Translations under genes and position numbers: made by a program
The notes under the pieces: generated by a model
Database searches by the model: none
What the model saw: only the letters and a program-made list of their open reading frames with translations
What the model was told of the DNA's origin: nothing
In this document: positions 9,220 to 39,520 of the stretch, piece after piece
Numbering within the stretch: the first letter of the stretch is position 1
How the letters are laid out: every line of letters begins with the position of its first letter
DNA from: Lactarius indigo
Lineage: Eukaryota > Basidiomycota > Agaricomycetes > Russulales > Russulaceae
Length of the DNA stretch: 64,000 nt
NCBI GenBank assembly: GCA_025766275.1
Contig: JAFKAC010000079.1
Coordinates: 213,758-277,757, forward strand
Reading direction: 5' to 3'

Positions 9220-9225
9220 AATGGG

Positions 9226-9236
9226 ATCTTGGTCTT
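9226..9236 (-). promoter_or_regulatory. Gypsy primer-binding site of self-priming (Tf1/sushi) type
   Basis: Two bases inside the 5' LTR the minus strand reads AAGACCAAGAT. The reverse complement of this 11-mer, ATCTTGGTCTT, is present in the 5' LTR on the same strand at 9442-9432. That is about 28 nt downstream of a TATA-like TATTTAA (9476-9470), where the transcript 5' end is expected. I do not recognise a tRNA 3' end here. This matches the Tf1 scheme, in which the mRNA 5' end folds back to prime reverse transcription. Confidence 0.7.
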
Positions 9237-9238
9237 AA

Positions 9239-10293: not shown

Positions 10294-10307
10294 AGCAGCA
10301 GGGATGG

Positions 10308-10321
10308 CAGGGCCCATAACC
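10308..10321 (-). promoter_or_regulatory. Copia-1 primer-binding site (initiator tRNA-Met anticodon-arm type)
   Basis: The minus strand reads GGTTATGGGCCCTG next to the 5' LTR. The same 14-mer abuts the 5' LTR of Copia-2 at 46622-46635. It is complementary, with one G-U pair, to the CAGGGCUCAUAACC anticodon arm of eukaryotic initiator tRNA-Met, as in Drosophila copia, which is primed by a cleaved half-tRNA. Confidence 0.7.
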
Positions 10322-10789: not shown

Positions 10790-11136
10790 TCCGGGGCCAG
10801 ACACCATTGCACCAAGTAGTACTGGGCAATCACGACTACCAGAGTTTCTGGATGAACCCATGGGATAAAAAATCCCATCTAGGCAGAGTTGTTTGTCTGG
10901 CACAACAATTACTGGAGCACGGCGCGGACGTGAACGCACAAACCAGGGACCGGGAAACGCCGTTACATCTGGCATCACGCCTTCGGTTGCACGAGATGGC
11001 GCGAATTCTTCTCAAGTACGGTGCCGATGTCAATGTGAAGAACTCCGAGGGCAAGTCCCCGTTACAACTCGCTTCTGGGAGAAAAGGCAAGGGGATGAAA
11101 CGATTGTTGTTGAAATATTCATATCCTGTCAAGTAA
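10790..11136 (+). pseudogene. 3' end of an ankyrin/NLR gene cut by Copia-1 (cassette 0)
   Basis: The frame opens inside an ankyrin unit (IRGQTPLHQVVLGNHDYQS) and continues through LLEHGADVNAQ, PLHLASRLRLHEMARILL and GADVNVKNSEGKSPLQLASGRK to a stop at 11134-11136. It aligns residue for residue with the last two to three ankyrin units and basic tail of NLR-A and NLR-B. The 5' part is missing because the copia LTR ends at 10789. It should lie left of the window, beyond the copia 3' LTR. The surviving part has no stop. Confidence 0.85.
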
Positions 11137-14100
11137 ATATGATACAAAGTCGGGATAGGTCTGCCCTACGATACCTCAGTGTAGAAACATAGCTCGTTTG
11201 CCATATTTGTTCGGATGTTAGATAGCAGTCGTATGTGGAGTGTAAAAAAAATTTGCGGAATCCCGCACCTCACCGGACCGTGTCCCCCCTGCCCACAAAA
11301 GCGTTGTCCCTGCGCCCACCCTCGCTCGTGACGACATTCCTTCTTTCCATAAAAGCCTCAGAATGGTGGGGATCTCAGCGTACCGTGTGTCACGCAACTT
11401 GCTGGGGCCGTCTAACATGGCGCACGTGACACCTGTGCCCGATGGCCACAGGAGGAGCAAGCGCAGGCGGTAAATGGTCAGGGTGACAAAAGCCTCGCAC
11501 GAATAGGACGGACTAGACCGGAGGGAGAAGATCACTGCAATAAAGATGCTCGCAATGCGAAATTACGAGAGCGAGAAGCGAAGTGCCACGTGTATGCGTT
11601 GGCCATCCTTAAGAGGAAGAGAACGAGAAATGGGTGAGTAACAGTTAAGAGGGCCTATGTCAAGGGTTCCAATATATTTGCCAAACTCTAGCGACAGATT
11701 GCCCACTGCGCCCGTCGGCCAATGGGAACCCTGCACCTGGCTCCATCTGCGTGTGGAGAGGAGAGGGTGTGAGAGGATGAGGTCCTTGGGAAAACAGTAT
11801 GAGGTAAACGGTACTCGTACAAAGAGATCGCGTTGCACAGTACTTACATTCGAAAGTTTCGAAATACAAACGTATTTCGTCACGGATAAACGCGCAACCG
11901 TCAGGGGAGAGCGGCATATGCCCGCAGTACGTCGCCTACGCCCGCTCCGGTACAGAGGTAAATATATCACACGCGTCATCGCTGAAGCCGCAGAGGCAGT
12001 ACAAACCCGGCAGGAGGGGCAGTAAGGTCTGCAAAGGAAGCGCGCCCAGCGATAATGCGTGTGAGCGAGGAAGTGTGACCTAGGAAGTACGGGAAAACGC
12101 GCCCATGTCGCTCGTCAACTCTCTGGCCGGGAACTCCCTCACTCGAACCGATGAGCCGGACGCAGAGCTCGATCCGGCGACGAGCGTAACAGACAATTTT
12201 GTCGCCAAAGTCAGCAAATGCCTTTTGAACGGTTTGACTCTCCTGCTCCACTTCTCATAGATAGCCAGCCACGTAAATGTAGCTGACGCGCGGTGGAGAC
12301 AATGACGATATCAGTCATCCGACTTCTAGTCTAGTCAATTTGACCGTGTCGGAGACAAGGGCAAGGTCCATGCCACTGAGACGCCCTTGAATTTCCAGGG
12401 TTCGGTACCGGAAGCGGGGTGTTGGGGAACCCGACGCTGAACCGACGCTGAGAAGAGGACGATCCGTACCGGACGGGCGGTAAGGACGGCGGAGGAAACT
12501 ATTGCTGGCGGGGCGGACGTGCGCGAAAGTAGTAGAGGACACCATTTGAATGCTATTCCATTTGTGAGATAGGGGACTGAAACGGGAGAGATAACGCACG
12601 TATAAAGCGAACAAGAGTTTTCTAACTCCTGCGACCAAGCTTCCGTTCATCGCCAACGGAAGCCCTGTTCTGGCGTGCCGTTTCGGAGAATGGCAAGGTG
12701 GTCCCTATGTGAGTGTGAGAAGGGGGTGCTCGGAAATGTTAGGTCGGGGTTGGTTTGACCGGCAAACACCGGATTTCCATGAGTTCGTCGCCATTTCACA
12801 TACTGTACAGTAAACTCTTCCCAAGACTCCCCACAGAATTTCCCCTTTGTGATGAGTCATTGCTCGATATTCCACTTGAGATCTACTTCTCTGTTTTAAA
12901 ACGTGCACAACGAGTGATTAGTACCATGGAACTATGGTTAGATGTGAATGTAATAGCGTCAATGATACATGAAGGAGAATATTACTAAGTTTGACGTTTG
13001 ATGAACAACTCAACGGGGGTATTAAAGGTCATGCTGGTCTGTGATAAGATAATGTGATGAATTCATTGGAACACCAGTAACGTTCAGATGTGATAAAAAT
13101 CTCAAGTCTGCTACAGCTGCAGTCGCTGCGGCTGCTGCCGGATGCGGAGAGCCGTGGGATGTCAAGACTACCCTATGGGCTACAATACACCGAGTGACCT
13201 TCGGCCACTTCTACTTTGCGCAGATGAGACCCCTACATGAGAGCGGGAAAACAGTGTGGGTACTGCGTGGCTCGGTGTGAGCAAGCCATGTGAAACTTGA
13301 AGCTTGAGGCCTGATGCTCTGTGATCCCGTCCGTTTACCCGAACCTGCGTGTGCACCGTTCTACCTAGGTGGTCCCCATAAAACCGCTTTGAGTAAGGCA
13401 GATCTAGATTTGCTCGACGTAGAGGCTGTGCTGGCGGTAGCTACCAGCGCACAAGCAGGTCAGAACTTAGTGGAGCATGAGTGCGTTTGAGTCTATTGCT
13501 CAGTCTATCGTTTCCTCGCCAGCTGTCATAGGTCAACAATCATCAGTCACCAGTCATCTGGTGAAGCTGTCTGAATCCCCGCAGTCGTCATCGCCCATAG
13601 TGACCCCCCTGCGCTCTGCCACCGCCCTGGTATGCCACACATCATGCCACCTGGTGGGCGTATCACCAGACGCGCTTCCCTGGGAGGCCGTGAGAAGATC
13701 CCTACACACCGCTGACAGCACCCAATGACCATTCGAGAAAAAAGTATGTTTATATCCCCTTCATCTTTTGAGAAAGGCTTCATGACGCCCACAGACTCTT
13801 GAGGGTGAAGTTATCAGGGCCTGCAGACACCACATGGGAAGATATTAATATCAGTAACATGGATCGGGGTGAACTGCATCTGGGTTGCTGCATATCTAAG
13901 GTAAGCTCAGCTTTTTTTAAAGATCTGTTTCTATTCCGGGATACATATTGGAAATACAGACCGGTCGCCATAATAGAGCTACAGTGTCTATGGGCAGTTC
14001 TGCCTATGCAGAATCACCTCCCCAACACAGTACCTGCGACTAGCACTATGAATTAACGTTAAACCAAGGCAAAACCATATAGACAGAGGCTGGGAGGCAG

Positions 14101-14554: not shown

Positions 14555-17500
14555 ATGTCATCCAACAACCAGATGTCCTCCTCCACTCCAAATATTCAGC
14601 TGATCTTCGACGAGGCCCTAAAAGAGTACAAGAAGAAAACCGGAAAAGAACTTACTACCCACCCAATTGCAGACGAGATCAAAGCTTGCGATTCTCCTGA
14701 AGCTATCCTTACGGTACTTCAAGGGAAAGCCAATGAACTCAACCCATCTCAGAGCAACGATGAGCGACTCACCAAGTGGCTTACGCCAACCGTAAATGTC
14801 CTCAACGCACTCTCCGCCACCCTTGGTGTGGGTGTTGGTATGGTAAGCCCCAGCATGTTGTCACATAATGCTCGGTCTGTGTCATAACGTTAATTTTCAG
14901 GTATTTCCCCCGACTAAAGTCATATTTTCTGGAATCGGCATCCTCCTCGTAGTCAGTTTTTGTGCCCACTCCAATCGTGTACTAGTAGGCCGATAACACC
15001 GTCATGACCTCACGCAGGCAGCAAGGGACACGGCAGCGAGCCGCGATGCACTTATAGAACTCTTCGACCAGATAAAGAACTTCTTTATACGCCTCAAGAC
15101 CTACACCGAAGTCCCACAGACCGCGGAGATGACGAGCGTAATAGGGAAGATTATGGCGGAAGTGCTGTTTATGCTTGCTATAGCAACAAAGGCGATGAAG
15201 CAAGGACGAACGAGTGGGTCCAGTTCTGTCTCTGAGCTTCTCCTCACTTAAATTCGACCAGAAACATTTCTTAAAAAGCTGGCGGGAAGGAACGACATCG
15301 AGGACGCGCTACTGAAGTTGAATAAATTGGAACAGGGGGAGCTTCGTATGGTATCTGCGCAAGTGTTGAAGACCACCAGTGATCTCAAGGACGTTACAAA
15401 GGATATAAAAGACGCTACTGGTAATCTCAAGGACGGTGCGTAGCTAGTTCGTCTCTCAACACAATTCACACTAAATATCGGATCAGACGCGAAAGAAACG
15501 AAAGTGATGGTGCAGCAGATTGTAAGCAATATTAGCTCCGGCAGTTGTAAGTATTGTCATGATCTCATCGCGAATAAGTGTAAGAGTTCACACACAATTT
15601 CAGGGGAGCAACTCCGAGGATGGTTGACTCCACCTGATCCATCGACGAACCACAACATCGCGTGCAGCGCTCAGCACGAGGGAACTGCGGTGTGGGTTTT
15701 CAACGAGGATATTTTCAAGCAATGGGAGTCGTCGGGCTCATTATTGTGGATTCATGGGAAACGTACGTTTTATACAATGGGGCCCGCATCTCACTGACAA
15801 CTGCTGCTTTTGTAGCGGGGTCGGGGAAGAGCATCCTCTGGTTCGCCATTCTGTTTTATTTTCGTATCCAGAAGCTTATGTTCTCGATCAGCTCTGCAAT
15901 CATTCAGCACATCATCACCCTACGCGATGCTGGGTCGGCCTCCGCCGCCTATTTCTATTTCGATTTTAGAGATGACAATAAAAAGCATCGGCGAAACCTC
16001 CTTTCTTCACTTCTGATACAGCTTGCTTCCCGGTCCACGCCTTGTCTCAATATACTCTCCCACATCTGTTCCCCTTATGATGCTTGCAAGGAGCAACCCA
16101 GTGAACGTGCTTTGATGCGATGCCTCAAAGACATGCTCATGGTCCCTTCCCTTTCTCAACTCCCCACTTACATCGTCCTTGATGCCCTTGACGAATGCCC
16201 CAACACGTCCGGCATACCAACTCCGCGAGGACATGTCCTCGAACTCGTAAAAAATCTTGTTGACCTGCGCCTTCCGAACCTACACATCTGCATCACCAGT
16301 CGCTGGGAGAATGATATCCGGACCACTCTCGAGCCACTGGCATCGGGCCACCTCTCCCTTCATGACCAACCCGGGCAGAAAAATGATATTGTTGAATACA
16401 TTGGTGCGGTTGTTCAATCCGACCCTCAAATGATGAGTTGGCGGGACGATGACAGGAGTCTAGTAATCAGGACACTCTCGGAGAAAGCCGATGGCATGTA
16501 AGGCGATGTTTCATTCTCATCAGTACCCCCTTCCCTAATATTCGTCATACAGGTTCCGATGGGTGTTTTGTCAGCTGGAGATGTTGAGGCACTGTCTGGC
16601 TCCCAGTCTTCGACGTCAACTTGACGAACTACCGAAAACCCTGGACGAGACATACGAGCGGGTCTTGAAAGAGATCGAATCCACCAACCAAGGCCAATAC
16701 ACGCGCCGTTTGTTGAATTGCCTCGCTGTGGCTCGTCGGCCGCTTCGTGTTGAGGAGTTCGCAGAGGTACTTGCATTTGACCTTGATACAACTGAAGAAG
16801 AGATCCCGACACTCCATGTGGAATGGCGATGGGAGGACCAAGAGCGAGCCGTGTTGTCTGCTTGTTCGAGCTTAGTTGCCATTGTCGACGACGGGAATTG
16901 CCGGGTTGTCCAATTTTCACATTTTTCAGTGAAGGAGTACCTCACGTCGAATCGTCTTGTTGCCGCGAGCGGAGATATCTCACAGTACCACATTCTTCCC
17001 GAACCCGCGCACTTGATCCTTGCGCGTGCCTGTCTTGGCGTTCTACTCAACTTGAATAATCGCGTTGACAAAGATTGTGATGAGGGGAGTGGCAGGAACG
17101 GCGACAAGATCATCCCTTTGCTCAACTACGCTGCCAGGTACTGGGTTCCCCACGCACAGGTTGGGAGCGTCTCGTCACGCCTTAAGGATGCGATGGGGAT
17201 TCTTTTCGACTTGAACCAACCATACTTTTTGGAATGGATAAAGATACACGACATCGACCCCTATGTATATGAACACCGGGAAAAACACCACCAACCCCTG
17301 TACTACGCCGCTCTCTGTGGGTTCTATGACCTAGTTCGGCGCCTCGTCGTTAAACACCCAGAACAAGTAAATTATCGTAGTGGCAACCTCCGGTGTCCCC
17401 TGGTCGCGGCCCTATCAAGAAAGCACTTTCGGGTTGCCGAGCTCCTCATTGAACATGGCGCACATATCAACGCTCGCGGATGCCCCCCACTTTTCCACAC

Positions 17501-19370
17501 CATCCGGTTTTTAGGAGGTGCTCGTGTCGACGCCGTGGAGTTTCTGCTCAGATGTAGCGCAGATGTGAACGCCATGGAGGAACATTTTTGGACTCCACTG
17601 CATATAGCGGCTGAAAGGGGATTTCTCAAGGTAGCTCAGATGTTACTCGAACACGGGGCCGAGGTCGATTGTCGAAATGACAAGGGTCAATCACCATTAC
17701 ACCTGGTGTCGATCAGGAAGTCTGGCGAACACGAAGGCGAACGTGAAGGCGAACGTGCTATTCTTGTGCGAATACTAGTTGAGCGCGGTGCGGACGTGAT
17801 GGCACAAGATGAGGACAAGGCAACCCCGTTGTCTTTCGCATCATGTTACGGGCGGTCCGAGATTGCCCGGCTACTGCTCGACCACGGCGCAAACGCACAA
17901 GCAGAGAACATCCAAGGCCGGAGCCCACTGCACGAGGTGTCACGAGGCATCCGCCAATACCAAACATATCCTAACATCGGACTTAGTTCCAAGGACACGG
18001 CATTTCGCCACGAAATGGCTTCCAATGTCGCGCTGCTCCTCCTTGAGCACGGCGCGGACGTGAATGCACTAGATAAAGACCACGCAACCCCATTACATCT
18101 CGCGTCCTCTTACGGGATACTCGAGGTCGCTCGACTGCTGCTCGACCATGATGCGAAAGCCAACAGGGAGAACGTTCAGGGCGAGACGCCTTTGCATCTA
18201 GTTTCACAACACGTGCCGTACAGCAACGGAAATTCCGACGTCGCACGACTTCTACTAAAACTCGGCATGGACGTGAACGCACGAGACAAGTCCCAGGCAA
18301 CCCCTTTACACTTCGCGTGTTTCCGTGGGCACTTCGATACGGCATTGGTGTTGCTCGACCATGGAGCTGAAGTCAACGCGCAGAACGCTGATGGCCAGAC
18401 CCCATTGCACCGTGCTGTAAATTCTTGCGCATACTATAATGTTCGTGTTGCACAGCTAATGTTGGAGCGCGGCGCGGACGTGAATGCACGAGACAAGGAC
18501 CGGGCAACCCCATTACATTTGGTGTCTCCCTTCTACTCGGCGGAGGTTGCTCAGGTGCTGCTTGACCATGGTGCCGAAGCCGACGCACAGAACGCAGACG
18601 GCCGGACCCCATTACACTGTTTATCGCAATGTTCACATATCCGCCACCTTCATAACTTCGCGCGGCTATTGTTGAAACACGGCGTGGACGTAAACGCACA
18701 AGACAAATCCCAAGCAACCCCATTACATTTTGCATCCCAGCGTGGGCTTGTTGATGTCGCCGAGGCGCTGCTCGACCACGGGGCAAGCGCGAATGCGGAA
18801 GACATCCGGGGCCAGACACCATTACACCGAGTATCACAGTGCCTAGACCATCCTGGTGAACACTCTTCCCGTGTTGTGCGGCTATTGTTGGAGCGCGGCG
18901 TAAACGTGAACGCACGAGACGAAGAACAGGCAACCCCATTACATTTAGCATCCTACTATGGGAATGCCGGTGTCGCAGAGGAGCTACTTGATCATGGGGC
19001 ATGGGTTAACGGGGAGGATATCCGAGGCCAAACACCCCTACACCGATTACTACTAGGAAATCACGACTATCACAGTTTCACGAAGGCGGAGTCGTGGGAT
19101 CGAAAAAGCTATCCAGACAGAGCTGTTCGCCTCGCACGGCGATTACTAGAGCGCGGCGCGGATGTGAATGCACAAAACGGAGACCACGAAACCCCGTTAC
19201 ACCTGGCGTCACGTCTACGGTTACTCGAGATAGCGCGAACCCTTCTCGAGCTCGGTGCCGACGTCAATGTGAAGAATTTGGAGGGAAAGTCGGCTTTGCA
19301 GCTTGCTTCCGGAAGAAAAAGGAAGGCAATGAAACGATTGTTGTTGGGATGCTCTAACAACCAGGCGTGA
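14555..19370 (+). CDS. NLR-A: Goodbye-NACHT-ankyrin STAND protein, 9 exons, reads intact
   Basis: Likely an intracellular sensor/switch NTPase of the fungal NLR type. Exons by splice signals and comparison with NLR-B: 14555-14842, 14901-14951, 15018-15213, 15262-15435, 15487-15546, 15604-15762, 15816-15840, 15892-16497, 16553-19370. Their sum is divisible by three, giving 1458 residues. The N-terminus (STPNIQLIFDEALKEYKKKTG) matches the Goodbye domain of fungal STAND proteins. A linker with three TSDLKD-type heptads follows. In NACHT, Walker A GKPGSGKS is assembled across the intron at 15763-15815, Walker B is IVLDALDEC and a sensor-like CITSR follows. The winged-helix-like region (FRWVFCQLEML... 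VVQFSHFSVKEYLTS) leads to about 18 ankyrin units and a Lys/Arg tail. The ligand and effector are unknown. It is close to NLR-C in repeat order. Confidence 0.9.
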
Positions 19371-22300
19371 TACATAGTCGTGATTGGCCTGCTCTACGAT
19401 ACATCAGCGTAGAAACGTTGCTTTGTTCGACATATTTATTCAGATACAGATAGTAGGTAGTAGCTTTATACGGAACGTATTGAAGATCCCGCAGCTCACC
19501 TCTGCTCGACCTGCCAATTCATGAAAACGTTATTCTTGCCCCTTGTCTCGCCCCATTGTCGCTCACGGCAACCGTGCTCCAGCATCGGCCCAACATGGGC
19601 AAGCATCAGCGCATCTCATGTCACGTAACTTGGTGGGGCTCTATCTGGATGTAGTATCACCATTGGGTGGCTCACTGGAGAAGATTCAAGCGCGGTTAAT
19701 GAATGGCCTGGTCACGCGGAATTATGTGAGGGAGAAGCGAAGTGTCATTTGTACGCGTTGGCTTAGTCAGGAAGGGAACGAGAAGTAGTGAGTGCCAGTG
19801 GCGGTAGACAGAAGACGCACGTCGAGTATATTTGCCGAACCCTAGCGAGGAATTGCTCGTCAGCCGATGGCTGACCTGCGTCGGGCGCTGTCTGTTGGGA
19901 GAAACGAGAGGAGGGCGAAAGAGGGACTAACGAGGGAGAGTAGTCCTTGGGGGAAAATGGTGTGCTGTGGACTGCGTTGCGCAGTGCTTACGCTTAAAAG
20001 TTGGCGAATGGAAACATTTTTCGTCCCAGACGAATGTACGAATCTGACTTTTGTCAGTAGAGCCCCGGAGCGGCACGGCCGTGCACTGTGTCGCCCATCT
20101 CCGCCATTTCACAAAGGTAATGCATCGCATGCGTCAGTGTCACCACCGGAGCCGCCGACACGGAACAAATCATGCAGGAGGAGTAGAGGTGCCCAGGGCA
20201 AACGTACGCTGTGAGAAGACGCATGAGCGAAGAAGTGCGACCACGCAAGTACGGGAAAAACCCCCACGCTTTTCATCTGCTCAGCGCTCGGCGCATGGGA
20301 CATTGTCACCCTCTCCACCAGCTACACCATCGCTGCCCTCTCTTTCGCCCAAACGAATATGCCAGACATAGATTTCACATCCGGGGACGAGTGGAACAGA
20401 TATTGGTTGCCATATACTATACTCACCTGTTTCGGTTTCCTCCCTCACACAGACTGCCAGGACATGTAAACATTGGGTTGCGTAGCTGACGCGTCGTGGA
20501 GGCAAAGGCGATGTCGGTCATGGATCGAGCCGTAAATGCGGACCAAGGTCAGTGTCCTTGGATTTCCAGGATTCGGTGCCAATGGTTGGCTGGGGACCCG
20601 ATGCCTTGCAGAGGCAAGAAGAGGCCTACCAAATGGCAGAAAGGTGATTACTCGTTGAGTAGATGTACAGAGAGTAAAGAAGACCATTTGAATGCCATTC
20701 CATTTATGTGAGAGAGAACCAGAACAGGAGAGACAACGCACTCTTCAACGGACCAAGCTAATAAATAAATACGGGAGCCCTGCTTCTGGAGTGCCGATGT
20801 TGGGTCGGAGAACAACGGTAAGAATTGCGGAGAGGAGGTAGCCTATTCCTATTTTCAGGTGAGCAATGAGAGGGAACAGCCCTATTTGAGCTTAGATTGC
20901 TTGATTAGAACCGACATGACACTCGTCGAACGAGAAGATGGCGGTCTGTCGGAGGGACGGTTTGGCCCGCGGACACCAGTTGTTGCATTCAAATGAGATC
21001 CCGCTTTTAAATACAGTAGCTAACCCACTTATAAGTTATTTATAACCTTCCCACGACTATTCCCGTTTACATTGGCTCCAGCTCTACTTCTTACATTACA
21101 ACGTGTGCGACAAGTAACTACCGCTGTAAAACAAGCTGTATAACACATGTATCGTGGTTTGAGGTGGCTGCAATGGCGTCGATAGGACAAAACGTTTTTG
21201 GGACCGTCGAACGTTGAAGACTTGTGCTGATCTGCGATAATGTTAACTTAATTGGAACGCACCCGACTTACCTATCCCCAGGCCATGGAGAGTAATACCG
21301 ACCCACAAAGTAATTCAGATGTGACGACGCCATATCCTCTGGTATGCAACTTCTTTCGTGTTCATGACCCCATTTCCCTCCTGCCGTAAGCCCGACCGGC
21401 ACCAGCAATTACCAAAGATAACTCGCAACGTACCGTTCAGACTTGCGAAAAACAAGACGAGTCGTGGGCTTGCTACGGCTGCGGTCACCGCGGCTGCCAC
21501 AGGTGGAGAGATGTCGTGCGGTGTCAAGACGGCCGTGTGACCTTCGAGCCCTTCCACTTTTGCACGGACGAAACTTCTACGTCATGCGAGAACTTGGTCT
21601 GTGGTATTCCGTCATGGCACCACCCGGGGAGAGCCGCGGGAAACCTGAAGCCCCGTGAACTCGTATGCTCACCCATACGTCCTTGGTGGCACCCTGCCTG
21701 ATCAGAGCACCCCAAGAATCCGTCAAGATAAGCGTGGATCGGGAATGATATGCGGAATCGCTCGACGTGGAGGCGGTGCTGGCAGTAGCTGCTAGCGTAT
21801 AAACCGATTGGAAAATAACGTGTGAGAAGGAGCGAGAGAAAGAGGGTCGACGATCATCGTGTGATAAGATGTTGTTTTCGCTTAAGTTTACAAATGCATA
21901 GGAATTCTGGCACGGACATAATGTCTTCAAACGCAGGCCCGTGTCGCTCCGGTGATTGATCGAAACAAACAAACGCATGAGGGTTGACATGTTGAAGTCC
22001 TTGAGGATAATCATGAACAAAACTCAGAGGTCACCCTGGTACGCACCTAAAAGTCTGATCCCCGCCGTTGTCCTCGCTCGTCGTAACCATCACTCGCTCT
22101 ACCACCGCTTGGGGCGCCGCACGTAGTAACACCTAGTGAGTGTATATGCTCTCCTCCAGTCGGCCCCAAGACTGTTCTTACAGAGTACCAATGGCCTCCG
22201 ATGACCACCCTCCGACTGGGGTGTCCTGGTATTGGTGCCGGCAATTCGAGTTGAGGGGCCAGTGCCTTAAATTCCTACGAGGGCCGGACGAATGCTTTCA

Positions 22301-22603
22301 GACCACAGATGGGACGCGTACAACACAGATGCGCACTAGAGGGACAGTAGTAAGATGCCATTTACCTCTGTGAGAGGAAACGAACGGGAACGAAGGGGGA
22401 GAGAAAAGGCGTGTGAGAAGGGGCCACGGGATCCGGTTGAACCGGTCCGGATACTGATGAGCGCCTGTTTCAATCAAACCGTCATGCGTGCTGTGCGAAA
22501 GGCTGTGCGCGCTACCTACGCACGTTCCCACCTGAGAAACGTGGTCCTTGGCTCGCATTTTCGACCTGCACTTTCCATCGAACTCAAAGTTACCACAATT
22601 ACG
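19371..22603. repeat. Inter-NLR spacer 2
   Basis: Diverged copy of the other spacers. The 3' flank (19375-19430) and the block at 19870-19950 (GGAGAAACGAGAGGAGGGCG) recur at 38065-38130. Blocks at 20690-20750, 21228-21260 and 21640-21790 have counterparts in spacers 1, 3 and 4. No convincing gene. The last 100 bp before 22604 resemble those before 32584 and probably hold the NLR-B promoter. Confidence 0.7.
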
Positions 22604-27594: not shown

Positions 27595-30500
27595 ATGTGA
27601 TACGTAGTAGTGACGGGCCTGCTCTATGAGGCATTTGTGTAGATAAGTAGCGGAATCGTATTTGTTCGGATGCGTAGATTGTATATAGTAGTCGTTCGTA
27701 AAGTGTAAAAGGACATCGCATGAGTCACCCCTGCTGACCTGCGCATTCGCGAACACGTTGTCGGTCCCTACTATCGCTCGTGATGACCACCTTGCGCTTC
27801 ATTAGCCCCCCGCGTAGGCCAGGATCTCAGCGTGCCGGATGTTAGATTACTGGTCAGGCCATCGAGCAGGTCGCATATGACACAACCACTAACGTCCGAC
27901 AGCTTCACGGGAAGGGATTGCAAGCGCAGGCGGTAAATGGGCAAGAAGCCGAACGCCTCCGGGAATGGGAGGAACAGTCCCGAAGGGGTAGACAATGGAT
28001 GCTGCACAAGAATCAAAGTGCCGTTCGTATGTCTTATCCATAAGAGGAAAGAAACGAGAAGTGGTGAGAGGGTAGAGAGAGGATAGTGGACACACGTTGA
28101 GTATTTTAACATATTTTGTGCCGCATACTTGGACGCATAGTTCGTTGAGCTGACTGGAGTTCTGCGTCTGGGGCATCTGTTCTGGGATAGAGAGGGTTGA
28201 TGATGGAGTCAAGGAGGGACTCCGAGTTGTTCGAGGGCTCGGACAAGGGGACAACTTGTGTACCTACATTGGCGAATGTAACAGCCTGAGTATTACCCCA
28301 ACTTTTATCTTTTGTCAGGAGAGCTACTCAGGTCTGCAGTGCGCCCCCCTCTGGCATTATGGAAACGTATTCACGCCGCTTGTTTGTCTGACCTCAGGCT
28401 GATTGCTCAGCGCTCAGCCCTTATACTTTGGCTTGTACGTTCCCGCGCATATGGGACATTGGCACCTTCCTCTCCACCCTGGGCCCCAGCCCCTATCTCC
28501 CCCGACTCCAAACTGTGACAGATGCAGGAACCCCCAGGGATGTAATTAGGTCGTATCACTGATAGCTGTATAAACGACGGATCTTGCTCTACTAAATTTG
28601 AGAAACTTGAGACCCGGAATAACCGAATCGGAGATGCGGGCCGAGGTCCTTGGATTTTGGCCGGTCTGAGGCGGAACGAGGCACTCGCGGCGCCTTAGAG
28701 CATTGTTTTGAGTGAGCGGACGAGGCGGCACATGCCATTCCCTTCTTGCGTGCCGCCACCTGCCCGCCCACTATTCCAACCAGTCTAAAGAACCGGATCC
28801 TTTCTTTTTTCCCGCCCACCGCACCCTTTTTCCTTTTGCCATGGGATCGTTTATGAGGATCGCTGTTGTCCCCAATGTTCTTCTGGTCGCCCCAGGAGGG
28901 TTTCCACTCGCCCGTCGCAACCTCGCCTCGGAGGCAGAGACCCTCCTTTTCGATCGAGAAGCGCTTCGCGCTTTCGCCCGCTCTCTATACTTGTTTTACC
29001 CCCATTTCGCGCGAGCATGAACTCCTTTCGCACCTAGCCACCTACACCGCCTGTACATGCTCTTGGACTGAATACCCAAATAGACCTAGCCGCGTCCCAT
29101 TGCGGCTCCGTGACTGACTCTACGCGTGGCGCCCCAGCTCTCCCTCACCTCCCCTCTCCTCAACTGGCGCCGTACCGTCACCTCCATCGTAAAGCGCTGC
29201 GACTCGCAAAGATTACGGCGGCAACCGGAAATGTCCCTCATGAACTCGCCAATTATCCTTAAGTTTTCCAGCTCTCGTTGCTCCGCACCTCAAATACCCC
29301 CCAACTTCATCCATGACATCAAAACCAGGTAATCCCGGCGGCCAGAGAAGAAGTATCCCAGAAATAGAAGGATATGATCCAAATGTAGACAAATCGGCGT
29401 ACCCTTCCACCCGACTGCGATGTATGTGATAGTCCTGATCGTTGCAACTATCCAACCCTTCAACTGTCCTGACTCCGCGGATCAGTGACGCTCCCTGCTC
29501 ACCTAATATCGACCTAATAAGCCTAGTCAGTAACTTATGGGACAATCAATGAGAAGTGGTCGCTGCGGGACAAATGGGACCTCAGACTGTTGCTGTCGTC
29601 GTTACTTGTATCCTAGATTCTTGCTCTGCGCCTGCGCATACCATTGTACGATCAAAAATAACTATATGCTAGCGAGATAATACTCGGACTTGGACAAGCT
29701 CTTGTGAAACGTACTCGTGATGGATCTGCTCTACGATATGAAAGTGTAGAAATGCCGCATTATTTCATATATGTTTTCTAATAGTAGGTAGTTCCAATGT
29801 AGCGGACATCCCTCACATTACCCCTACCCGACCTGGCTATCCACGAAAGTATTGTCCGTGTCCCTACCCTCCCAACCGTCTCGTGTTCTACCAGCGGCCC
29901 AACACGCGTTACACCAACTATTGTCGGGAGAGCGAGGAAGCTCTGCATAGAGCGTACCGGAGGCGAGATGCGTGCTGCTATAATGTGCGTGATGGAGGAA
30001 GTGTGACCCAGGAATCACTGGAAATGCCGCTCGTCTGGTCAGCGATCGGTGTTCGCCGTTCATACGTTTCCGCGCATTTGGGACATTAGCCCCTCCTCTC
30101 CAACCTTGATTTCTTCTGTACGATCCTCGCGAACTCGATCGACGCACCAGATGCAGAACTACCATCCAATAATGAGAAGGCGACAGACATTTCGGCGCCA
30201 AAGTCAGAAAATATGTTGGAACGTTTGACTCTGCCCGCTATCGCCTTCACATAGATGGCATGTAAATCGTGGGACGAATTACTAATGCGCAGTGGAGGAA
30301 ATGTCAATATCGTCCATCCAATGGAATCGGGACTATGGCCGAGATCGATGCGGCCAAGGCATCCTTGAATTCCAGGCTACGGTGTCGATGGTGAGGTGTA
30401 GGGAAATTCGGAGCCATGTAGAGATGGAGCGAACCCTACTGGACAGGCGATAAGGACGGTTGCGGAGACAAGTGGTCGCTGTATGCATGGATGTGGGCAA

Positions 30501-32583
30501 ACGGGGGAGTAGAGATACCATTTGATATTTGGGTGCTTTTCCGTTGGTGAGTGAGAGAAACAGAATAGGAGAGATAGCACACACCTCAACGGACCGAGCA
30601 CTTTCTGACTTCGGTGATGAACGTTTCGCTCCATTCACAGCCCAACTTTCAGTTTGGAGAAAGGCGATGTAGGAGAGATGGGAGGCGGCCTAGTCCTATG
30701 TATGCAGGGTCCAGATTGCCGGTGTCGAGATGGCATAATGGGGTGATAGTCGGGGAAGTTGGACTTTCTTGGGTCGACTTGGCATGACACTTGTCGAGCG
30801 AGAAGACGACGAGAATGAGCCGGAGATGTCGGTTTGGCTGACAAACAGTACCAATCACCGGACGTCCGCGTTCCGTGAGTTCCGTTCCACATGAGTTCGC
30901 CATTTCATGTACTTTCAACTTCATCCCGACGGAACATAAGTAGTAGGTGCTGCTTTTGAATAACCCCCCACGACAATTCCATTGAGTCATTGATCGACAT
31001 TTCGCTCCTCTGCTTCCTGCGTTACAGTACAAAGTGCGTACCGAGTAACTACGGCCGTAGAACCACACATACCACGGCTAGATGTGGCTGCAATGGCATT
31101 CGATAGCACCCGAAACATTTTGGGGATAGTTGAATAACTCAACGGGGGTCATGCTGATCTGCGATAAGATAACGATAACTTGATTGGAACGCACCAAACT
31201 CGACTCCGTTCGTGTCTGCGACCCTTTCTGCAAGACCAACTAGAGGTGCCAAAAAGAACTCGCCCCATACCGTACAGCTATCAACGGGTCTCGAGTTTGC
31301 TACGGCTGCTGCAGTCACCGTGGCTGCCAGAGGTGGAGTGGAGGGGGGTGTCAAAACAGCCGTGTAGCCCTCGGGCCATTCTACTTTTGCACGGATGAAA
31401 CTCCCGCGAGTTCGAGGTACCGCGTCACGCACGACTCGGAGAGAGCCACGGGAAACCTGAAGCACCATGATCTTGTACGTTCGCCAATACGTGCTACGTG
31501 CGCTGTTCTACCTTGATAGTAGCCTGTCTGGTTAGTGCGCCCCAGAAATCCGCTATGAGTAGCGCAGATTGAGAGTGAAGTGCAGAATTGTTTGACGTGG
31601 AGGAAGCGCTGGCGGTAGCTACTAGCACAAAGGCCAGTTGGGAGACAAGGTGTGGGAAAGAAGGAGGGTAGATGGTCGTCGTGTGATAGGATGTCTATAA
31701 GTTGGTGAGTGTGCATAGGGACTCTGGAACGGAACTTGAAGGACAAGCGAACGCAACTTGTGCCAGGGGAAAGGGCCAAGGTCGGCACTCGTCTGCTGAT
31801 CCTATCAGTCATGTCTACAGACGCAGGCAAACACAGCGGCCACGCTCTGGTCATTGATCGAAACAAACGAATCGAACGAGGGTTGACGATGTTGACAGGT
31901 CGACGCCGTTGAGGAAGATACTCGTGAACAGACGTTGAAAGCCACCCTGGTACGCACCTGAAAAGCGACATCCCCGCCATCACCCTTGCTCGTGCCCTCC
32001 TGTGCTCTGCCACTGCCTTGGTGCGCGGCGCGTCATAACTCCTAGTGAGTGTATCGCCTCTAGTAGGCCGCAAGACTCTTCTTACATACCATTAATTGCC
32101 ATAAATAACCATATTCTGACCGAGGTATCGGTGCCTGGCATCGGTGTGGGCTATTGGAGATTGGGGGGCCTAGCGTCCTACGAGGGCTGGACGAACGTGT
32201 TCACGGGATTGGACAGATGGGAAACGTACAGCATAGATGCATGTGGGAGAGGATCGTATTTTCCAGTTGGATTCCCATTTGTGAAGGGGGCGAATAGGAA
32301 CGAAGGGGGGATGGAAAGAGCGCGCGCATCGAGGACTGAGAAGGAGGCAGTGAGGAAGCGTATCGCTGGAACCATCCGGTCACGATTGAACCGGTCCGGA
32401 AAAGCGCTTGTCTCAGTCAGTTCTAGGTCATGTGTGCTGGGTGCCTGCCGCAAGGACGTGCTTTGGGCAGTGCGCGCTACATGGATACACGAGGCAGGGT
32501 AAACGTTCCCATCTAAGAAACCCTGTCCTTGTCTCTCATTTTCGACATACACTCTTATCGAACTCACAGTCGCGATAAACACG
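27595..32583. repeat. Inter-NLR spacer 3, carrying two copies of the 3' flank
   Basis: Nearly 5 kb without a convincing gene. The normal 3' flank follows NLR-B at 27600-27660, and a second copy appears at 29700-29780 (GTACTCGTGATGGATCTGCT). This is followed by the usual spacer order (30540, 31150, 31600, 31700-32200). About 28260-29690 is not matched by the other spacers. The arrangement suggests that a further cassette once stood between NLR-B and NLR-C and was lost, or that a spacer was duplicated. Confidence 0.65.
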
Positions 32584-35500
32584 ATGTCGACCAGTCTCCA
32601 GGCATCCTCCTCCACTCCAAACGTTCACCCGATCTTCGAGAAGGCCCTCAAAGAGTATAAGAAGAAGACCGGAAAAGAACTGTCTACCCATCCGCTTGCG
32701 GAGGAAATACAAGGCTGCGGTTCTATTGAAGCTATCCTCGCCGTACTTCAAGGGAAAGCCAACGAACTCAATCAAAATCAGAGCAGCGACGAGCGACTCA
32801 CAAAGTGGCTTACGCCGACCGTGAATGTTCTCAACGCACTCTCTTCCACCCTTGGCGAAGGCGTCGGCACAGTGAGTTCCAGTACGCTGCCTGGTCACCA
32901 GACGGCGTCCTAACATTAAATTTCAGGTATTTCCCCCCACTAAAATTATCTTTTCCGCCATGAGTATCCTCCTTGTGGTGAGTTGACCTTCTGCGTAGAC
33001 TGTGATGACCCGGGACAACGCCATTTCCCACAGGCGGCAAGGGATACCGCAGCGAGCCGCGATGTACTTATCGAGCTCTTCGAGAGAATTGAAAACTTCT
33101 TTGTACGCCTCCAGACGCACACCGAAGTCCCACCGACAGCGCAGATGGTGAATGTGATGGGGAAGGTTATGGTCGAAGTGCTGTCTATGCTTGCGATGGC
33201 GACAAAGGTGATGTACCAAAGTCGCAAGAGTTTGTTCATCTCCCCTCCCCCGAGTTTCCCCTTGCTGAAATTGGACCAGAAACGTTCCTTAAGAAGCTGC
33301 TGGGAAGGAACGATATTGGGGACGCGTTAGTGAGGTTGGATAAATTGGAACAGGGGGAACTGCGGATGGTGTCTACGCAAGTGTTAAAGGACACCAGTGA
33401 TCTGAAGGACGCTACAAGTGATATTAAGGACGTCGCAAATGACATTAAGGACGTCACAAGTGATATTAAGGACACCACAAGTGATATCAAGGACGTCACA
33501 AGTGATATCAAAGACGATACCAGCGAGCTCAAGGACAGTGCGTAGTTCTTCGTCTCATAACACAATTCGTGCCAAACCTCTTCGGATTAGACGCGAAAGA
33601 AGCAAAAGTGATGCTAAAGCAGATTCTCGGCGATGTTAGCCCCCACCAATGTTCGTATTGTCATGGCCTCACCGCGAATGCTCGTAAAGCTCACATACAA
33701 TACCAGGGGAGCGGCTCCGAGGATGGTTGACTCCGCCTGATCCATCAATCAAACCACACCAACGCGTGCGGCGCTCAGCATGAGAGAACTGCGGCCTGGG
33801 TTTTCAATGAAGATATATTTAAGCAGTGGGAGTCGTCCCAGTTGGGATCCTTATTGTGGATCCATGGCAAAGGTATCGGTGTTCCACTCTGCGGGGTTCA
33901 CCTGTCTGACTGCTCCTGGTTTCGTAGCGGGTTCAGGGAAGAGCATCCTCTGGTTCGCCATTCTGTTTTCTCTCCATACAGATGCTTATGTCCTTCGGTC
34001 AGCTCTTCGATTATCCAGCATCTCATCACTCTCCGCGATGCTGGGTTAGCCTCCATTGCCTATTTCTATTTTGACTTTAGAGATGACAACAAGAAGCATC
34101 GCCGCGGGCTCCTTTCTTCGCTTCTATTACAGCTTTCTTCCCGGTCCACGGATTGTCTCAATATACTCTCCCACGTCTATTCGACCTACGACGCTGGCAA
34201 GGAACAGCCCAGTGAACGTGCTTTGGTGCAATGCCTCAAGGACATGCTCATGGCGCCATCCCTTTCTCAACTCCCCACTTACATCGTCTTGGACGCCCTT
34301 GACGAATGTCCCAACACATACGGGATACCAACTCCGCGAGGACATGTCCTCGAACTTGTAAAAGATCTTGTTGACCTCTGTCTTCCGAACCTATGCATGT
34401 GCATTACTAGTCGCTGGGAGAATGATATCCGGACCGCTCTCGAGCCTTTGGCATCAGGCCACTTCTCCCTTCATGATCAACCTGGACAGAAGAACGACAT
34501 CAGCGAATATGTCAGCGCTGTTGTTCAATCTGACCCCCAAATGAAGAGTTGGCGAGAAGACGACAGGAGTCTAGTCATCGAGACACTCTCGGAGAAAGCT
34601 GATGGCATGTAAGGCGATAGTCGATTTCGACCTATACTTCCCTGACTCATCGTACAGGTTCCGATGGGTCTTTTGTCAGCTGGAGATATTAAGGCATTGC
34701 CTCGCTCCCAGTCTACGGCGTCAACTTGACGAACTACCGAAAACCCTTGACGAGACGTATGAGCGGGTCTTGAAGGAGATCGAGTCCACCAACCAAGGCC
34801 GATACGCGCGCCGTCTGTTGCAGTGCCTTTCCGTGGCTTGTCGGCCGCTTCGTGTCGAGGAGTTCGCAGAAGTACTTGCGTTTGACCTTGACACGACCGA
34901 GGGAGAGATCCCGACGCTTCATGCGGAATGGCGCTGGGAAGATCAAGAGCGAGCAGTTTTGTCTGCTTGTTCGAGCTTGGTTTCCATTGTCGACGGCAAA
35001 AATACCAAGGGCGAATATTGCCGGGTTGTCCAATTTTCACATTTTTCGGTGAAAGAATACCTCACGTCAAATCGTCTTGTCTCCGCTCGCGGAGATATAT
35101 CACGGTACCACATTCTTCCCGAACCTGCGCACTTGATACTTGCGCGTGCCTGCCTTGGGGTTCTACTCAACTTGGATAATCGCGTTGACAAAGAGGGCGG
35201 CGGCGAGCACAACGACAACGACATCCCTTTGCTTAAATATGCTGCCGAACATTGGGCATCCCACGCTCAGGTCAAGAGCGTGTCATTACGTCTGAAGGAT
35301 GCGATGGAGGCCCTCTTTGACTTGGACAAGCCATACTTCTTGGAGTGGGTACGAATACACGACATAGACCCTTATATATTTGGGTACTGGAAAGAACGCC
35401 ATCCCCAACCCCTGTACTATGCCGCTCTTTGCGGATTCTATGACCTCGTTCGGCTCCTCGTCCTTAAACACCCGGAGCAAGTAAATTACCGTGATGGCAA

Positions 35501-37484
35501 CCTCGAGTTTCCTCTAGTTGCGGCCCTATCCAGAAAACACTTTCAGGTTGCCGAGCTCCTTGTTGAGCACGGCGCGCGTATCAATGTTCGCGGACACCCT
35601 CCACTTTTCCACACCATCCGATTTTTAGGAGATGCTCGTGTCGACTCCGTGCAGTTCCTGCTTAGACGTGGCGCAGATGTGAACGCCACAGAGGAGTATT
35701 TTTGGACCCCACTGCATATAGCAGCAGAAATGGGAAATCTCAAGGTAGCTCAGATGTTACTCGAGCACGGGGCAGAAGTCGATTGTCGGAACGACAAGGG
35801 GCAAACTCCATTACACTTAGGTATCGACCAGGAAGTCCGGCGAAGATGAAGGCGAACGTGAACGTGAACGTGCTATTCTTGCTCGAATATTGGTGGAGCG
35901 CGGTGCGGACGTGATGGCACAAGATGAGGACAGGGCAACCCCATTACATTTCGCATCATGTTACGCACGGGCCGAGATTACCCGGCTGCTGCTCGACCAT
36001 GACGCAAACGCCCGGGCCGAGAATATCCAAGGCCGGAGCCCACTACACGAGGTGTCACGAGGCATCAGCCAATATAAAACGTATCCTTACCTCGGACTTG
36101 GTTCCGGGGACCCAGCATATCACCGCAAAATAGCTCCCGATGTCGCACTGCTTCTACTAGAGCACAACATAGACGTGAATACACTAGATAAGGACCACGC
36201 AACCCCATTACATTTTGCATCCTCCTATGGGATGCTCGAGGTCACACGACTACTGCTCGATCATGGTGCGAAGGCCAACGCGGAGAATGTACGGGGCCAG
36301 ACCCCTCTTCACCTAGTATCATGGCACGAAGAGTACACTAAAGAAAACCCCGATGTCGCACGGCTATTACTGAAGCTCGGAATGGATGTTAACGCGCGAG
36401 ATAAGGACCAGGCAACCCCTTTACATTTTGCGTGTTTCCATGGGCACTTTGAGACCGCACTGGTGTTGCTTGATCACGGAGCTGAAGTCAACGCACAGAA
36501 CGCCAATGGCCAGACCCCATTACACCATGCTATAAACGATCGCATATACGATAATGCTCGTGTTGCACGGCTACTGTTGGAGAGGGGCGCGGATGTGAAT
36601 GCACGAGACAAGGATCAAGAAACCCCGTTACATTTGGCGTCATATCACAACTCGATGGAGGCCATGCTGGTACTGCTCGATCATGGTGCAGAAACTGACG
36701 TACAGAATGCAGACGGCCAGACCGTATTACACCGAGTAACACAGAGTTCACATTATAACTCATCCCGTCATGAGCTTGCGCGGCTATTGTTAGAGCGCAG
36801 CATGGACGTAAATGCCCGAGACAAGACCCAGGCAACCCCATTACATTTTGCATCCTACCATGGGCTTGTCCATGTCGCAAAGGTGCTGCTCGACCATGGG
36901 GCAAGTGCTAATGCGGAGGACATCCAGGGCCAGATTCCATTACACCGGGTATCACAGAGCTCACGCCATCGGGGATATGGTCCCGATATTGTGCGGCTAT
37001 TGTTGGAGCACGGTGTGGACGTAAATGCACAAGACAAAGAACAGGCAACCCCACTACATTTAGCATCCTACTATGGGAATACCTATGTCGCAGAGGAGTT
37101 GCTTGACCATGGGGTACAGATTAACGCGGAAGACATCCGAGGCCAGACACCACTACACCGAGTGGTACTAGGCAATCACGACTACTACAGTTTCACGACG
37201 GCGGAGTCGTGGATCGAAAACGCCATCCAGACAAAGCTGCTCGTCTCGCACGACAATTACTGGAGCGCGGTGCGGATGCGAATGCACAAAATGAAGACCA
37301 CGAAACCCCGCTACACCTGGCGTCACGCCTTCGATTGCTCGAGATGGCGCGAATACTTCTCAAGCACGGAGCTAACGTCAATGTGAAGAACTTGGAGGGA
37401 AAGTCACCTTTGCAGCTCGCTTCTGGGAGAAAGAGGAAGGCAATGAAACGATTGTTGTCGGAATACGCCGCCAACCAAGCATGA
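32584..37484 (+). pseudogene. NLR-C: Goodbye-NACHT-ankyrin paralog with three frameshifts
   Basis: All domains are present: Goodbye-type start (STPNVHPIFEKALKEYKKKTG), a seven-heptad linker, Walker A GKAGSGKS across an intron near 33870-33927, Walker B IVLDALDEC, CITSR, and about 18 ankyrin units in the same order as NLR-A. Relative to NLR-A there is one extra base at about 33745-33752 just before NACHT, one extra base at about 35819, and one missing base at about 37211. Each puts a stop in frame soon after, and the reading resumes in the expected frame. Exons and splice sites otherwise match NLR-A. Sequencing error at three sites is possible. Otherwise this is a young pseudogene that can still donate sequence by gene conversion. 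Confidence 0.88.
33390..33536 (+). repeat. 21-bp coding tandem repeat: seven coiled-coil heptads in the NLR-C linker
   Basis: Seven units of 21 bp encode variants of VTSDIKD, including DTSDLKD at the start and DTSELKD at the end. Ile or Leu and Val recur with 3-4 spacing, the a/d pattern of a coiled coil. NLR-A has three such units (about 15369-15434) and NLR-B one (about 23410-23430), in the same exon directly before the same intron. Confidence 0.9.
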
Positions 37485-39520
37485 TAGGTAGTCGTAATGG
37501 GCTTGCTCTATGATACAGTGTGGACATGTTACTTTGTTTGACAAATTCATTCGGATACACAGTTTGTAGGTAGTAGCCATATATGGAGCGTATTGAAGAT
37601 GCCGCGCGTCACCTCTGCCCAACCTGACCATTCACGAAACCGTTATCCCTGCCCCTACCCTCGCTCATAACAACCGACTAGCCCAACACGGGCAACCGTC
37701 AGCGCACCGCATTTGATGTGGCCGCCAACCTCACAGCATGTAACATCACCACTGGTGCCCCGTGGCACCACGGGAGACGATACGAGCTCAGGTGGTAAAT
37801 GGTCAGTGTGTCAACCGCCCCACGAGAATGGACAGGAAAAATCACGCCGGAAGGCAGAAAACACCGCACTAGGGAGATGCGCGGCATGGGGGTTATGCGA
37901 ACGGGAAATAAGTTTTTATGCGTTGTGTTAGTCTAGAAGGGAACGAGAAGTTGTGAGTAATGTTAAAGAGTTAAAGAGAGGATGCACGTCGAGTATTTCG
38001 ATATATTTACCGAACCCTAGCGGGGAAATCTTGCCAGCAGACGGGAGACCCGCGTCTGGCGCTGTCTATTGGGAGAAACGAGAGGAGGGCGAAAGAGGGA
38101 TTTATGGGTGAGGGAGCGTAGTCCTTGGAAAGGAAAGGAATGATGTGAATGGTTTCAGTACAAGGGGAAGGGCGTAGCGCTGTGCTTACACTTGAAAGTT
38201 GGCGAGTACAAACATATTTCGTCACCGACGGACATGCGAACTTAACTTTTGTCAGTGACGACCCGGAGTGGAACGAGCCCACACTGTGTCATCCGGGGCT
38301 GCCCATTCACGGAGGCGATGCATCACATGCGCCATGACATCACCGGATCACCACCGGAGCCGACAAAGCGGAACAAACCCTGCAGGAGGGGCAGTGATGA
38401 CCTCAGGAGAAACGTGCGCTGCGAGAATATGCGAGAGCGAAGAAGTGCGACCTAGGAAGTGCAGTGTAACTGATGTGTCGTGGAGGCAATGCCGATATCG
38501 GTCGTTGACGGAGTCAGAGATCCGGACCAAAGTCTGTGCCCTTGAATTTCCAGGCTTCGGTGCTGATGATGGGGCGTTGAGAACCAGATGCCCTGCAGAG
38601 ACGAACCCTAATACTAGATGACGGTAGAGGGGGTGTCTGTTCGCTTCGTGAATGGGTGTGAGTAGGTGTAGAGAGGACTATTTGGATGCCATTCAATTTC
38701 TGTGTGAGAGAACCGGAACGGGAAATATAACGCACCCTTCAAGGGTCCCCGAGCAAGCAAAAAAGCTCGCAGTTGATCACTCAAAAGGAGCTCTGCCTCT
38801 GACGCGTCGATGCCGGATCGGAGAAAAGCGAGAAGGATTCGAATCGGGAATGACACTTGTCGAGCGAGAAGACAGTGCGCATTGCGTGGTCAGTTCAGCC
38901 GGCAAGTACCGGTCGTTCCCATGTGAGTTCGCCATTTTACAGTACTGTTTTCACTCTGGCGCCACGTCTCACGCTCGCGAGAGGACAGGCAGATTCCGCA
39001 TTCGAAAAAAAAAAGATTCCTCGCACGACATTCCCGTTCGCATATTGAGTCTTTGGCCGACGTTCCACTCTGCTCCCTGCATCGCAACGTGCGCGCCGAG
39101 TAACTAGTAACTACTGACGTAGAACCACATGTATCGCAGCTAGACGTGACCATAATAGCACCGATAGCACGTAAAACGCCTCGGGGACTGTTGAAGAACT
39201 CAACAGGGGTCGTGCTGATCTGCGATAAGATAACGAAGGAATGCACCGAACTTGGCTCCTTTCGTGTCCGCGACCCCCATTTCCCTCCTTCCACAAGACT
39301 GACTTGCACCAGCAAGTCAAGAGAACTCGCTCCGTACCGTATAGCTATCATTGAAAATGGGACGAGTCTCAAGTTTGCTACAGCCGCGGTTGCCGGCGCG
39401 GTGGAGAGAAGTCGTGCCGTGTCAAGAGTGCTGTGTGACAACATGTCACGGCACGATTCGGAGCGAGCCGCGGGAAACTTGAAGGTCCATAGAGTATACG
39501 TCCGGTCGGTAACTGGGCCT
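37485..39520. repeat. 3' flank and spacer after NLR-C; right end of the NLR array
   Basis: The sequence follows spacer 2 (37490-37560 like 19375-19440; 38060-38130 like 19870-19950; 38683-38740 like 20690-20750; 39211-39250 like 21228-21260). Similarity stops near 39520. No gene is recognised. The open frame 38652-39107 crosses the conserved spacer blocks and looks fortuitous. Confidence 0.7.

Follow-up and report, generated by a model that had tools for sequence, protein, structure and literature searches.

Goodbye-NACHT-ankyrin genes at the locus

Lactarius indigo is a milk-cap mushroom with an ectomycorrhizal lifestyle, and the stretch of its genome analysed here (the window, 64,000 nucleotides, positions 213758-277757 of contig JAFKAC010000079.1, termed C269) contains three long paralogous genes, A, B and C, of the putative NOD-like receptor (NLR) type. 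The right end of the window coincides with the end of the contig, and the assembly (GCA_025766275.1) comprises 90.3 Mb in 291 contigs, the others being denoted likewise (C179, C239 and so on). The three genes lie head to tail on the forward strand with their starts 8.0 and 10.0 kb apart, share 73-82% of their nucleotides in BLAST pieces, and all bear Goodbye, NACHT and ankyrin signals, which bears out the three full-length paralogs of the original prediction, a note made from the letters of the DNA alone.

Gene A (14555-19370) is intact and encodes a predicted protein of 1458 amino acids (aa) in nine exons (14555-14842, 14901-14951, 15018-15213, 15262-15435, 15487-15546, 15604-15762, 15816-15840, 15892-16497 and 16553-19370), while gene B (22604-27594), also intact, has the same layout (22604-22891, 22946-22996, 23055-23250, 23299-23430, 23485-23544, 23603-23767, 23824-23848, 23900-24505 and 24564-27594) and a product of 1517 aa. 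Both models read through to their stop codon with no internal stop, and the eight short introns (48-66 nt) have GT-AG ends at positions that match across the alignment of A, B and C. Gene C (32584-37483) has the same nine exons, but its frame is broken by three separate single-base changes, one in exon 6 and two in exon 9, such that the common layout that had been predicted holds for all three genes and an intact frame for A and B. C is therefore full length yet probably a pseudogene, unless its disruptions are assembly errors; intact C-type relatives exist elsewhere in the genome, as do two intact relatives of B at 98% identity (C179:275-280 kb and C239:192-197 kb). That A and B each encode one long protein is independently supported by Goodbye-NACHT-ankyrin proteins annotated as single models in Lactarius deliciosus (P0001, 1548 aa) and Lactarius tabidus (P0003, 1522 aa), which are 60-63% identical to A over 99-100% of its length, and the best-scoring relatives of A in other species are also from Lactarius.

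The domain order, taken from the open frames and Pfam, is Goodbye, NPHP3_N/NACHT, winged helix domain (WHD) and ankyrins. Goodbye (PF17109, cut-off 24.8 bits) is recognised in A (28.1) and C (27.9), and B falls below the cut-off (19.2), its exons 1-3 sharing 77.2% of nucleotides with A and 87.4% with C. Pfam scoring of the NACHT region covered exon pieces of A and C, in which NPHP3_N (PF24883, cut-off 24.8) reached 81.9 and 90.9 bits, respectively, and PF05729 stayed below its cut-off of 26.7 in both (22.5 and 17.0). GPIID_WHD in B scored 24.0 bits, below the cut-off of 27, and the ankyrin families lie far above cut-off in all three genes. The P-loop (GKPGSGKS or GKAGSGKS) and Walker B motif (LDALDEC) are kept in A and B, with GKPGSGKS and IVLDALDEC in A, and two conserved blocks beyond the NACHT domain are present in both. 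A nucleotide-binding domain followed by C-terminal repeats thus identifies A, B and C, on predicted domain content, as fungal NLRs (STAND proteins of the NACHT type), which is the family that had been proposed.

Mosaic structure and the probable re-pairing of modules

Gene C is a mosaic, B-like on its 5′ side and A-like on its 3′ side. The sites that C has in common with B prevail as far as about 33.5 kb, those in common with A past about 34 kb, and the most likely crossover point lies at 33714-33717 on the forward strand, near the start of exon 6, where the breakpoint maximum chi-square is 67.3 compared with 17.2 in the largest of 2000 permutations. The discriminating sites of C (shared with A:shared with B) number 79:142 to the left of 33714 and 594:307 to its right. 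Identity over exons 1-3 is 87.4% between B and C and 80.4% between A and C, the order being reversed in the NACHT exons (A-C 85.2%, B-C 83.3%) and in the first part of exon 9 (A-C 85.7%, B-C 79.8%).

The spacers that flank C change partner as well. The upstream spacer of C (31284-32583) is B-like, that of B (21457-22603) being 68-75% similar to it, and the downstream spacer of C (37913-38748, from which array-type spacer runs on to 39491) is A-like, matching two blocks (71.7% and 70.5%) in the downstream spacer of A (19748-20754). Because these outer flanks switch along with the coding halves, as predicted for a crossover, C looks like the product of a single unequal crossover, which would account for the flanks and for both halves of the gene. 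A mosaic gene with exchanged flanks is the pattern by which unequal crossing-over, the mode of expansion suggested in the original prediction, would be recognised; it was seen for C, the other flanks compared being those upstream of A and of a fourth gene described below. The predicted duplication of the spacers is upheld in that alignment shows related blocks, though in patches only (19748-20754 with 37913-38748, 21457-21872 with 31284-31694, and 30981-31309 with 39044-39387). Positions 27760-30980 of the spacer between B and C have no BLAST similarity inside the window, and this unit is about 2 kb longer than that from A to B.

Exchange between the two ends of the gene recurs among the copies found elsewhere in the genome. 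In 17 copies, with exon 1 trimmed to its last 262 nt and C269_208 (a truncated allele of C179_120) set aside, the Goodbye and NACHT trees reject each other in the approximately unbiased (AU) test at p <1e-65, by 245 log units for Goodbye data on the NACHT tree and 224 for NACHT data on the Goodbye tree, and with WHD included the Goodbye data and the other two partitions reject each other's trees by 209 to 245 log units. In 15 copies (C269_203 and C179_105 being also left out of the ankyrin-tail test) every partition rejects the trees of the others by AU wherever values were printed, the mildest conflict being that of NACHT with WHD (26 and 41 log units), which is rejected by the AU but not by the Shimodaira-Hasegawa (SH) test. 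Individual copies illustrate the pattern, with C239_301 and C179_369 alike at 95.9% in Goodbye and 82.4% in NACHT, and C179_120 paired with A in Goodbye (89.2%) and with B in NACHT (88.7%). These trees suggest that the main reassortment is that of a Goodbye-plus-linker module against a NACHT-WHD-ankyrin module.

The linker in question is a variable heptad coiled coil, built on a 21-bp unit, in which exon 4 ends. It has its shortest form in B (exon 4 at 23299-23430) and its longest in C (33280-33537), with A (15262-15435) also on the forward strand. Exon 4 measures 132-258 nt over 18 copies, and its length is 132 plus a multiple of 21 in 16 of these, the exceptions being two copies, alleles, at 162 nt. 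The breakpoint in C falls just past this linker, and of the further switch points between Goodbye and NACHT, that between A and C179_120 lies at the exon 4 linker and that between C239_301 and C179_369 between the linker and the P-loop. The heptad repeat may be what causes the crossovers.

Gene conversion between paralogs, with the size of the array changing by other means, is the alternative that survives best. Conversion would give the same conflict of trees within the gene, and synonymous divergence between B and its two 98% relatives is 0.118 in Goodbye and 0.011-0.016 in NACHT (about 7-11 times less), as a short tract would leave it. In C, however, the outer spacers on both sides change partner in parallel with the coding halves, which no conversion tract confined to the gene would produce, and conversion in place of crossing-over is considered unlikely.

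Extent of the array and state of its copies

The window contains part of a larger NLR supercluster that runs head to tail on each contig. A search of the genome with 201 aa of the NACHT domain of A, in which 150 of 709 candidates were scored, found 47 places (A, B and C included) with at least 72% identity over no fewer than 200 of the 201 residues. They are distributed over C239 (17), C179 (16), C233 (8), C269 (5) and C281 (1), with 46 of the 47 on the first four, and their orientation is uniform on each contig (forward on C269, C179 and C239, reverse on C233). Beyond these are two partial places at 72% and further copies at 64-65%, including C269_195 and C179_098, and DNA searches with A, B and C found the lineage of each on several contigs. 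Genome-wide matches number at least 138 for Goodbye (150 of 967 candidates scored) and at least 89 for NACHT (PF05729; 89 of 674 scored). The array of four that had been predicted therefore gives way to one that extends to the left on C269 and continues for hundreds of kb on C179, C239 and C233. By the definition used in Sordariales, A, B and C already form an NLR cluster (at least two NLRs separated by under 40 kb and by no more than seven other genes); few open frames of at least 150 aa are listed in their spacers, which were not exhaustively annotated.

Haplotype duplication or misassembly of a dikaryotic assembly could account for much of such an apparent array, and both the collinearity of C179 with the left part of C269 (94.7-99.7%, the status of alleles or paralogs being settled for this part alone) and the identical NACHT scores of several copies on C179, C233 and C239 are of the kind that it would produce. 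It is nevertheless quite improbable, given 16 copies on C179 alone and 17 on C239 alone, the divergence of about 18-27% of nucleotides among A, B, C and the fourth gene, far beyond that of apparent alleles, and the 5-bp target duplications at the LTR (long terminal repeat) junctions.

The fourth gene, gene 0, had been taken for a truncated tandem copy beginning at 10790, but what lies there is the tail of its exon 9 and its 3′ flank (10790-11335, forward strand). Its start is near C269:206.8 kb (about -6900 relative to the window) and its body (C269:206.8-211.5 kb) ends at C269:211476, to the left of the window. Body and tail are separated by a nested LTR insertion of 13.07 kb inside exon 9, of which the right-hand part occupies window positions 1-10789. 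The outer 3′ LTR (10322-10789, 468 bp) is 99.8% identical to its partner, with a 5-bp target duplication (TCCGG), and the inner element is of the Gypsy type (2025-9695, reverse strand, with gag, reverse transcriptase, integrase zinc finger and chromodomain) and has LTRs (2025-2480 and 9239-9695) that are 99.1% identical. Window positions 10786-11268 match C179:123780-124262 at 97.9%, and there the tail is contiguous with an intact gene body. The target duplication and the uninterrupted counterpart on C179 together indicate a single gene divided by nested elements, and the displaced exon and the supercluster rule out a simple history of four-copy duplication.

The converse is found for gene A, whose counterpart on C179 (98%) is interrupted twice by LTR insertions that carry 5-bp target duplications; the first lies right at the beginning of the reading frame and the second within exon 9 (LTR identities 99.8% and 98.4%). 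Gene 0 is thus split on C269 and whole on C179, while A is whole on C269 and split on C179, and these look like reciprocal disruptions between apparent alleles in which different copies were lost in two haplotypes or nuclei. Among 19 copies read by projection, 11 are intact (A, B, C269_195, C179_098, C179_120, C179_276, C179_346, C179_334, C239_420, C239_193 and C239_301) and 8 disrupted (C, C269_203, C269_208, C179_105, C179_369, C179_401, C239_184 and the C179 copy of A), the disruption of C179_369 being confined to near its end. A second A-like copy lies in two pieces about 25 kb apart (C179:428177-428798 and C179:453500-454820), with a 6-base overlap between their query ranges, as expected at an insertion, and with a stop within the NACHT part.

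The ratio of non-synonymous to synonymous change (omega) was obtained for 9 chosen pairs of the 45 possible among 10 intact copies (C179_098, the allele of C269_195, being left out). It is 0.04-0.18 in all nine pairs for Goodbye, and for NACHT 0.05-0.19 in seven, with 0.61 and 0.30 in two near-identical B-type pairs that have 6 changes each. The WHD region gives 0.17-0.30 in seven pairs, one undefined value and one of 1.25 on five changes, and the ankyrins 0.27-0.54 in eight, with 2.06 in one near-identical pair on 15 changes, too few to use. By these estimates Goodbye and NACHT are under purifying selection and the ankyrins under a looser regime. An excess of non-synonymous change by ankyrin register occurs at a few positions (for example 12 and 21 in C-type copies), with few sites each, and no positive selection is claimed. 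The ankyrin repeats are also not of the HiC type (more than 85% identity over at least 100 aa), since in all 4 copies tested the best internal identity, taken over windows of about 104 aa, is 66-69%, and a BLAST self-comparison of eight copies listed no off-diagonal match of 60 aa or more. The proposal that the Goodbye-to-ankyrin pairing may be a reservoir of new specificities is supported in part, in that modules reassort and the ankyrin repeats are not homogenised; unequal crossing-over, supported by the mosaic of C with both its flanks, appears to act by re-pairing effector and sensor and not by shuffling ankyrin repeats. In the ankyrin exon of A, B and C179_120, repeats of 33 aa and longer repeats (36-55 aa in A) alternate, the longer bearing a variable loop after the TPLH-containing helix.

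A recent origin as an array of four units is not supported. Synonymous divergence between A and B is 0.65-0.99, and in an unrooted NACHT tree B groups with L. deliciosus, L. hatsudake, L. sanguifluus and L. vividus (support 80), C179_369 and C179_401 with one L. deliciosus sequence (98), C269_195 with L. akahatsu and L. hatsudake (100), and C269_203 with L. sanguifluus (96). From this grouping the unit lineages appear older than these species, and the C type appears to have grown in number later. A decaying, repeat-like gene family with no current function, to which the 8 disrupted copies of 19, the young LTR elements inside and beside the genes and the fragmentary deposited L. indigo models (in a listing limited by design to about 141-448 aa) might point, is hardly credible beside the low omega of Goodbye and NACHT between paralogs, the P-loop and Walker B motifs kept in A and B, and lineages that group with those of other Lactarius species.

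The family looks under-annotated in the deposited L. indigo models. Those with Goodbye are pieces of 179-390 aa on contigs of 767822 and 430182 bases (P0121, P0124, P0125, P0132, P0134, P0137, P0138, P0152, P0161, P0185, P0202 and P0215), from the size-limited listing just mentioned. A full-length protein search returned none from C179, C239 or C269 among the best 120 of 699, and two other NLR models lie on C179 (P0285 and P0314, at 52-54%). The array also hints that NLR genes of this kind may be split in deposited models.

The right edge of the array lies at 39485-39491, in close agreement with the end predicted at 39520. Array-type spacer and a flank shared with C46 overlap there by 7 bp (CATAGAG): nine spacers elsewhere in the array match that of C up to 39491, others ending earlier, and C46 matches from 39485 onward, with the junction at C46:1023102. 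The 0.9 kb of C46 to the left of this junction has no match in the sequences compared, apart from a poly-T run, and the edge is either a haplotype rearrangement or a chimeric contig. Beyond it is a young Copia LTR element (41382-47251, reverse strand; LTRs 99.84% identical; target duplication CCTTG), which C46 lacks, having a single copy of the 5-bp target instead; it belongs to the same family (93-94%, same termini) as the insertion at the start of the C179 copy of A. A short dispersed repeat (about 120 bp) occupies 39489-39608 and recurs on C1, C260 and C216 and, three times at a spacing of 795 bp, on C226. Pieces with NDC10_II, GCR1_C, SMC hinge and GEN1_C domains lie within 48287-54802, and C46 carries a nearly identical copy of 51207-54802.

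A probable receptor array and its relation to known systems

The explanation we favour, with a probability of roughly 0.7, is a large tandem array of fungal NLR genes that evolves by duplication and by unequal crossing-over that re-pairs effector and sensor modules. Each intact gene, if expressed, would encode an intracellular receptor in which the ankyrin repeats sense a ligand, the NACHT ATPase acts as a switch and oligomerises, and the N-terminal helical Goodbye domain serves as a cell-death effector of the MLKL/HeLo-like type, a cell-death output being expected by analogy with the NLR family. Tandem duplication and unequal crossing-over would enlarge and alter the array, with crossovers near the heptad linker joining effector modules and their upstream spacers to new sensor modules and their downstream spacers, while recent LTR insertions and small indels would inactivate single copies, and different ones in what appear to be two haplotypes. 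The sequence itself shows the structure of the genes, their mosaicism, the pattern of selection, the insertions and the size of the array, whereas expression, receptor activity, cell death, the ligand and the equation of the contigs with two nuclei are inferred.

Several points weigh against this explanation. In the NACHT exons alone C is barely nearer A than B, and what looks like one crossover could be a long tract of gene conversion. The region upstream of A has no relation to that upstream of gene 0 beyond about 100 bp, so that this flank gives a crossover no support. The trees of NACHT, WHD and the ankyrin tail also conflict with one another to a smaller degree (26 to 146 log units, the mildest mostly not rejected by SH), which points to further exchanges, not dated. 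An ankyrin omega above 0.25 could reflect relaxed constraint rather than adaptation, the single-base disruptions could be artefacts of assembly, the copies read are 19 of a large family, and C239 and C233 could be either haplotypes or paralogs, which bears on the number of copies per nucleus. The predicted match of Goodbye to the MLKL fold is weak and not specific: a first model from 35 sequences had a predicted local distance difference test (pLDDT) score of 54.7, and a second matched helical proteins unspecifically. A profile search of solved structures was dominated by ankyrin proteins, owing to full-length rows in the alignment.

The favoured explanation can be taken a step further, to the possibility, which we rate as less likely than not, that the heptad linker is a recombination joint at which effector and sensor modules are re-paired repeatedly across the supercluster, that LTR insertions leave each nucleus with a different live set, and that the repertoires in the dikaryon are complementary. 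Both the output half of the receptor and its sensing half would then be exchanged to generate diversity. If the contigs represent two nuclei, as they appear to, a single dikaryon would bear reciprocal losses of different receptors, in which complementation between nuclei is directly testable.

Among systems that resemble this one, L. deliciosus P0001 and L. tabidus P0003, compared as proteins only, have the same Pfam domains in single annotated proteins. Plant NLRs, which have NB-ARC and LRR domains, are another family, the Lactarius array having NACHT and ankyrin instead, and plant NLR clusters likewise contain transposable element insertions and pseudogenes. Such clusters are large, some with more than 10 genes, and are described in part of a study of Sordariales as shaped by unequal crossing-over and conversion (PMC12258605). 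The Sordariales clusters, also of fungal NLRs, contain 2 to 5 genes, 16 of 272 clusters being made up of paralogous copies, and unequal crossing-over is proposed for their diversity in the same part of that study (PMC12258605), whereas 16 and 17 paralogs stand on single contigs here. In the literature searched, which left most subscription journals out of scope, no paper on a Lactarius NLR array was found, and the absence of one is not claimed.

Goodbye is listed among NLR effector domains with NACHT and repeats, with an MLKL/HeLo four-helix core and an N-terminal extension and with its function left open, in the relevant parts of two surveys (Dyrka 2014, PMC4986451; PLoS Comput Biol 2022, PMC9815663). 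As far as those parts go, the surveys compare architectures between species, whereas paralogs of one array have swapped the effector module here. The HNWD-type NLRs of Podospora anserina and other NLRs whose repeats are highly conserved also have a repeat-built sensor diversified by recombination, but with near-identical repeats in it as described there (PMC4986451), while ankyrin units in L. indigo reach 66-69% and it is mainly effector and sensor modules that are exchanged. The best descriptions of recombination in fungal NLRs concern sensor repeats, to judge from the portions concerned (PMC4986451, PMC10197012). To this the L. indigo array adds an effector end that appears to be swapped against the sensor end, with evidence from the flanks in one gene, in a cluster far larger than the 2-5 genes of Sordariales.

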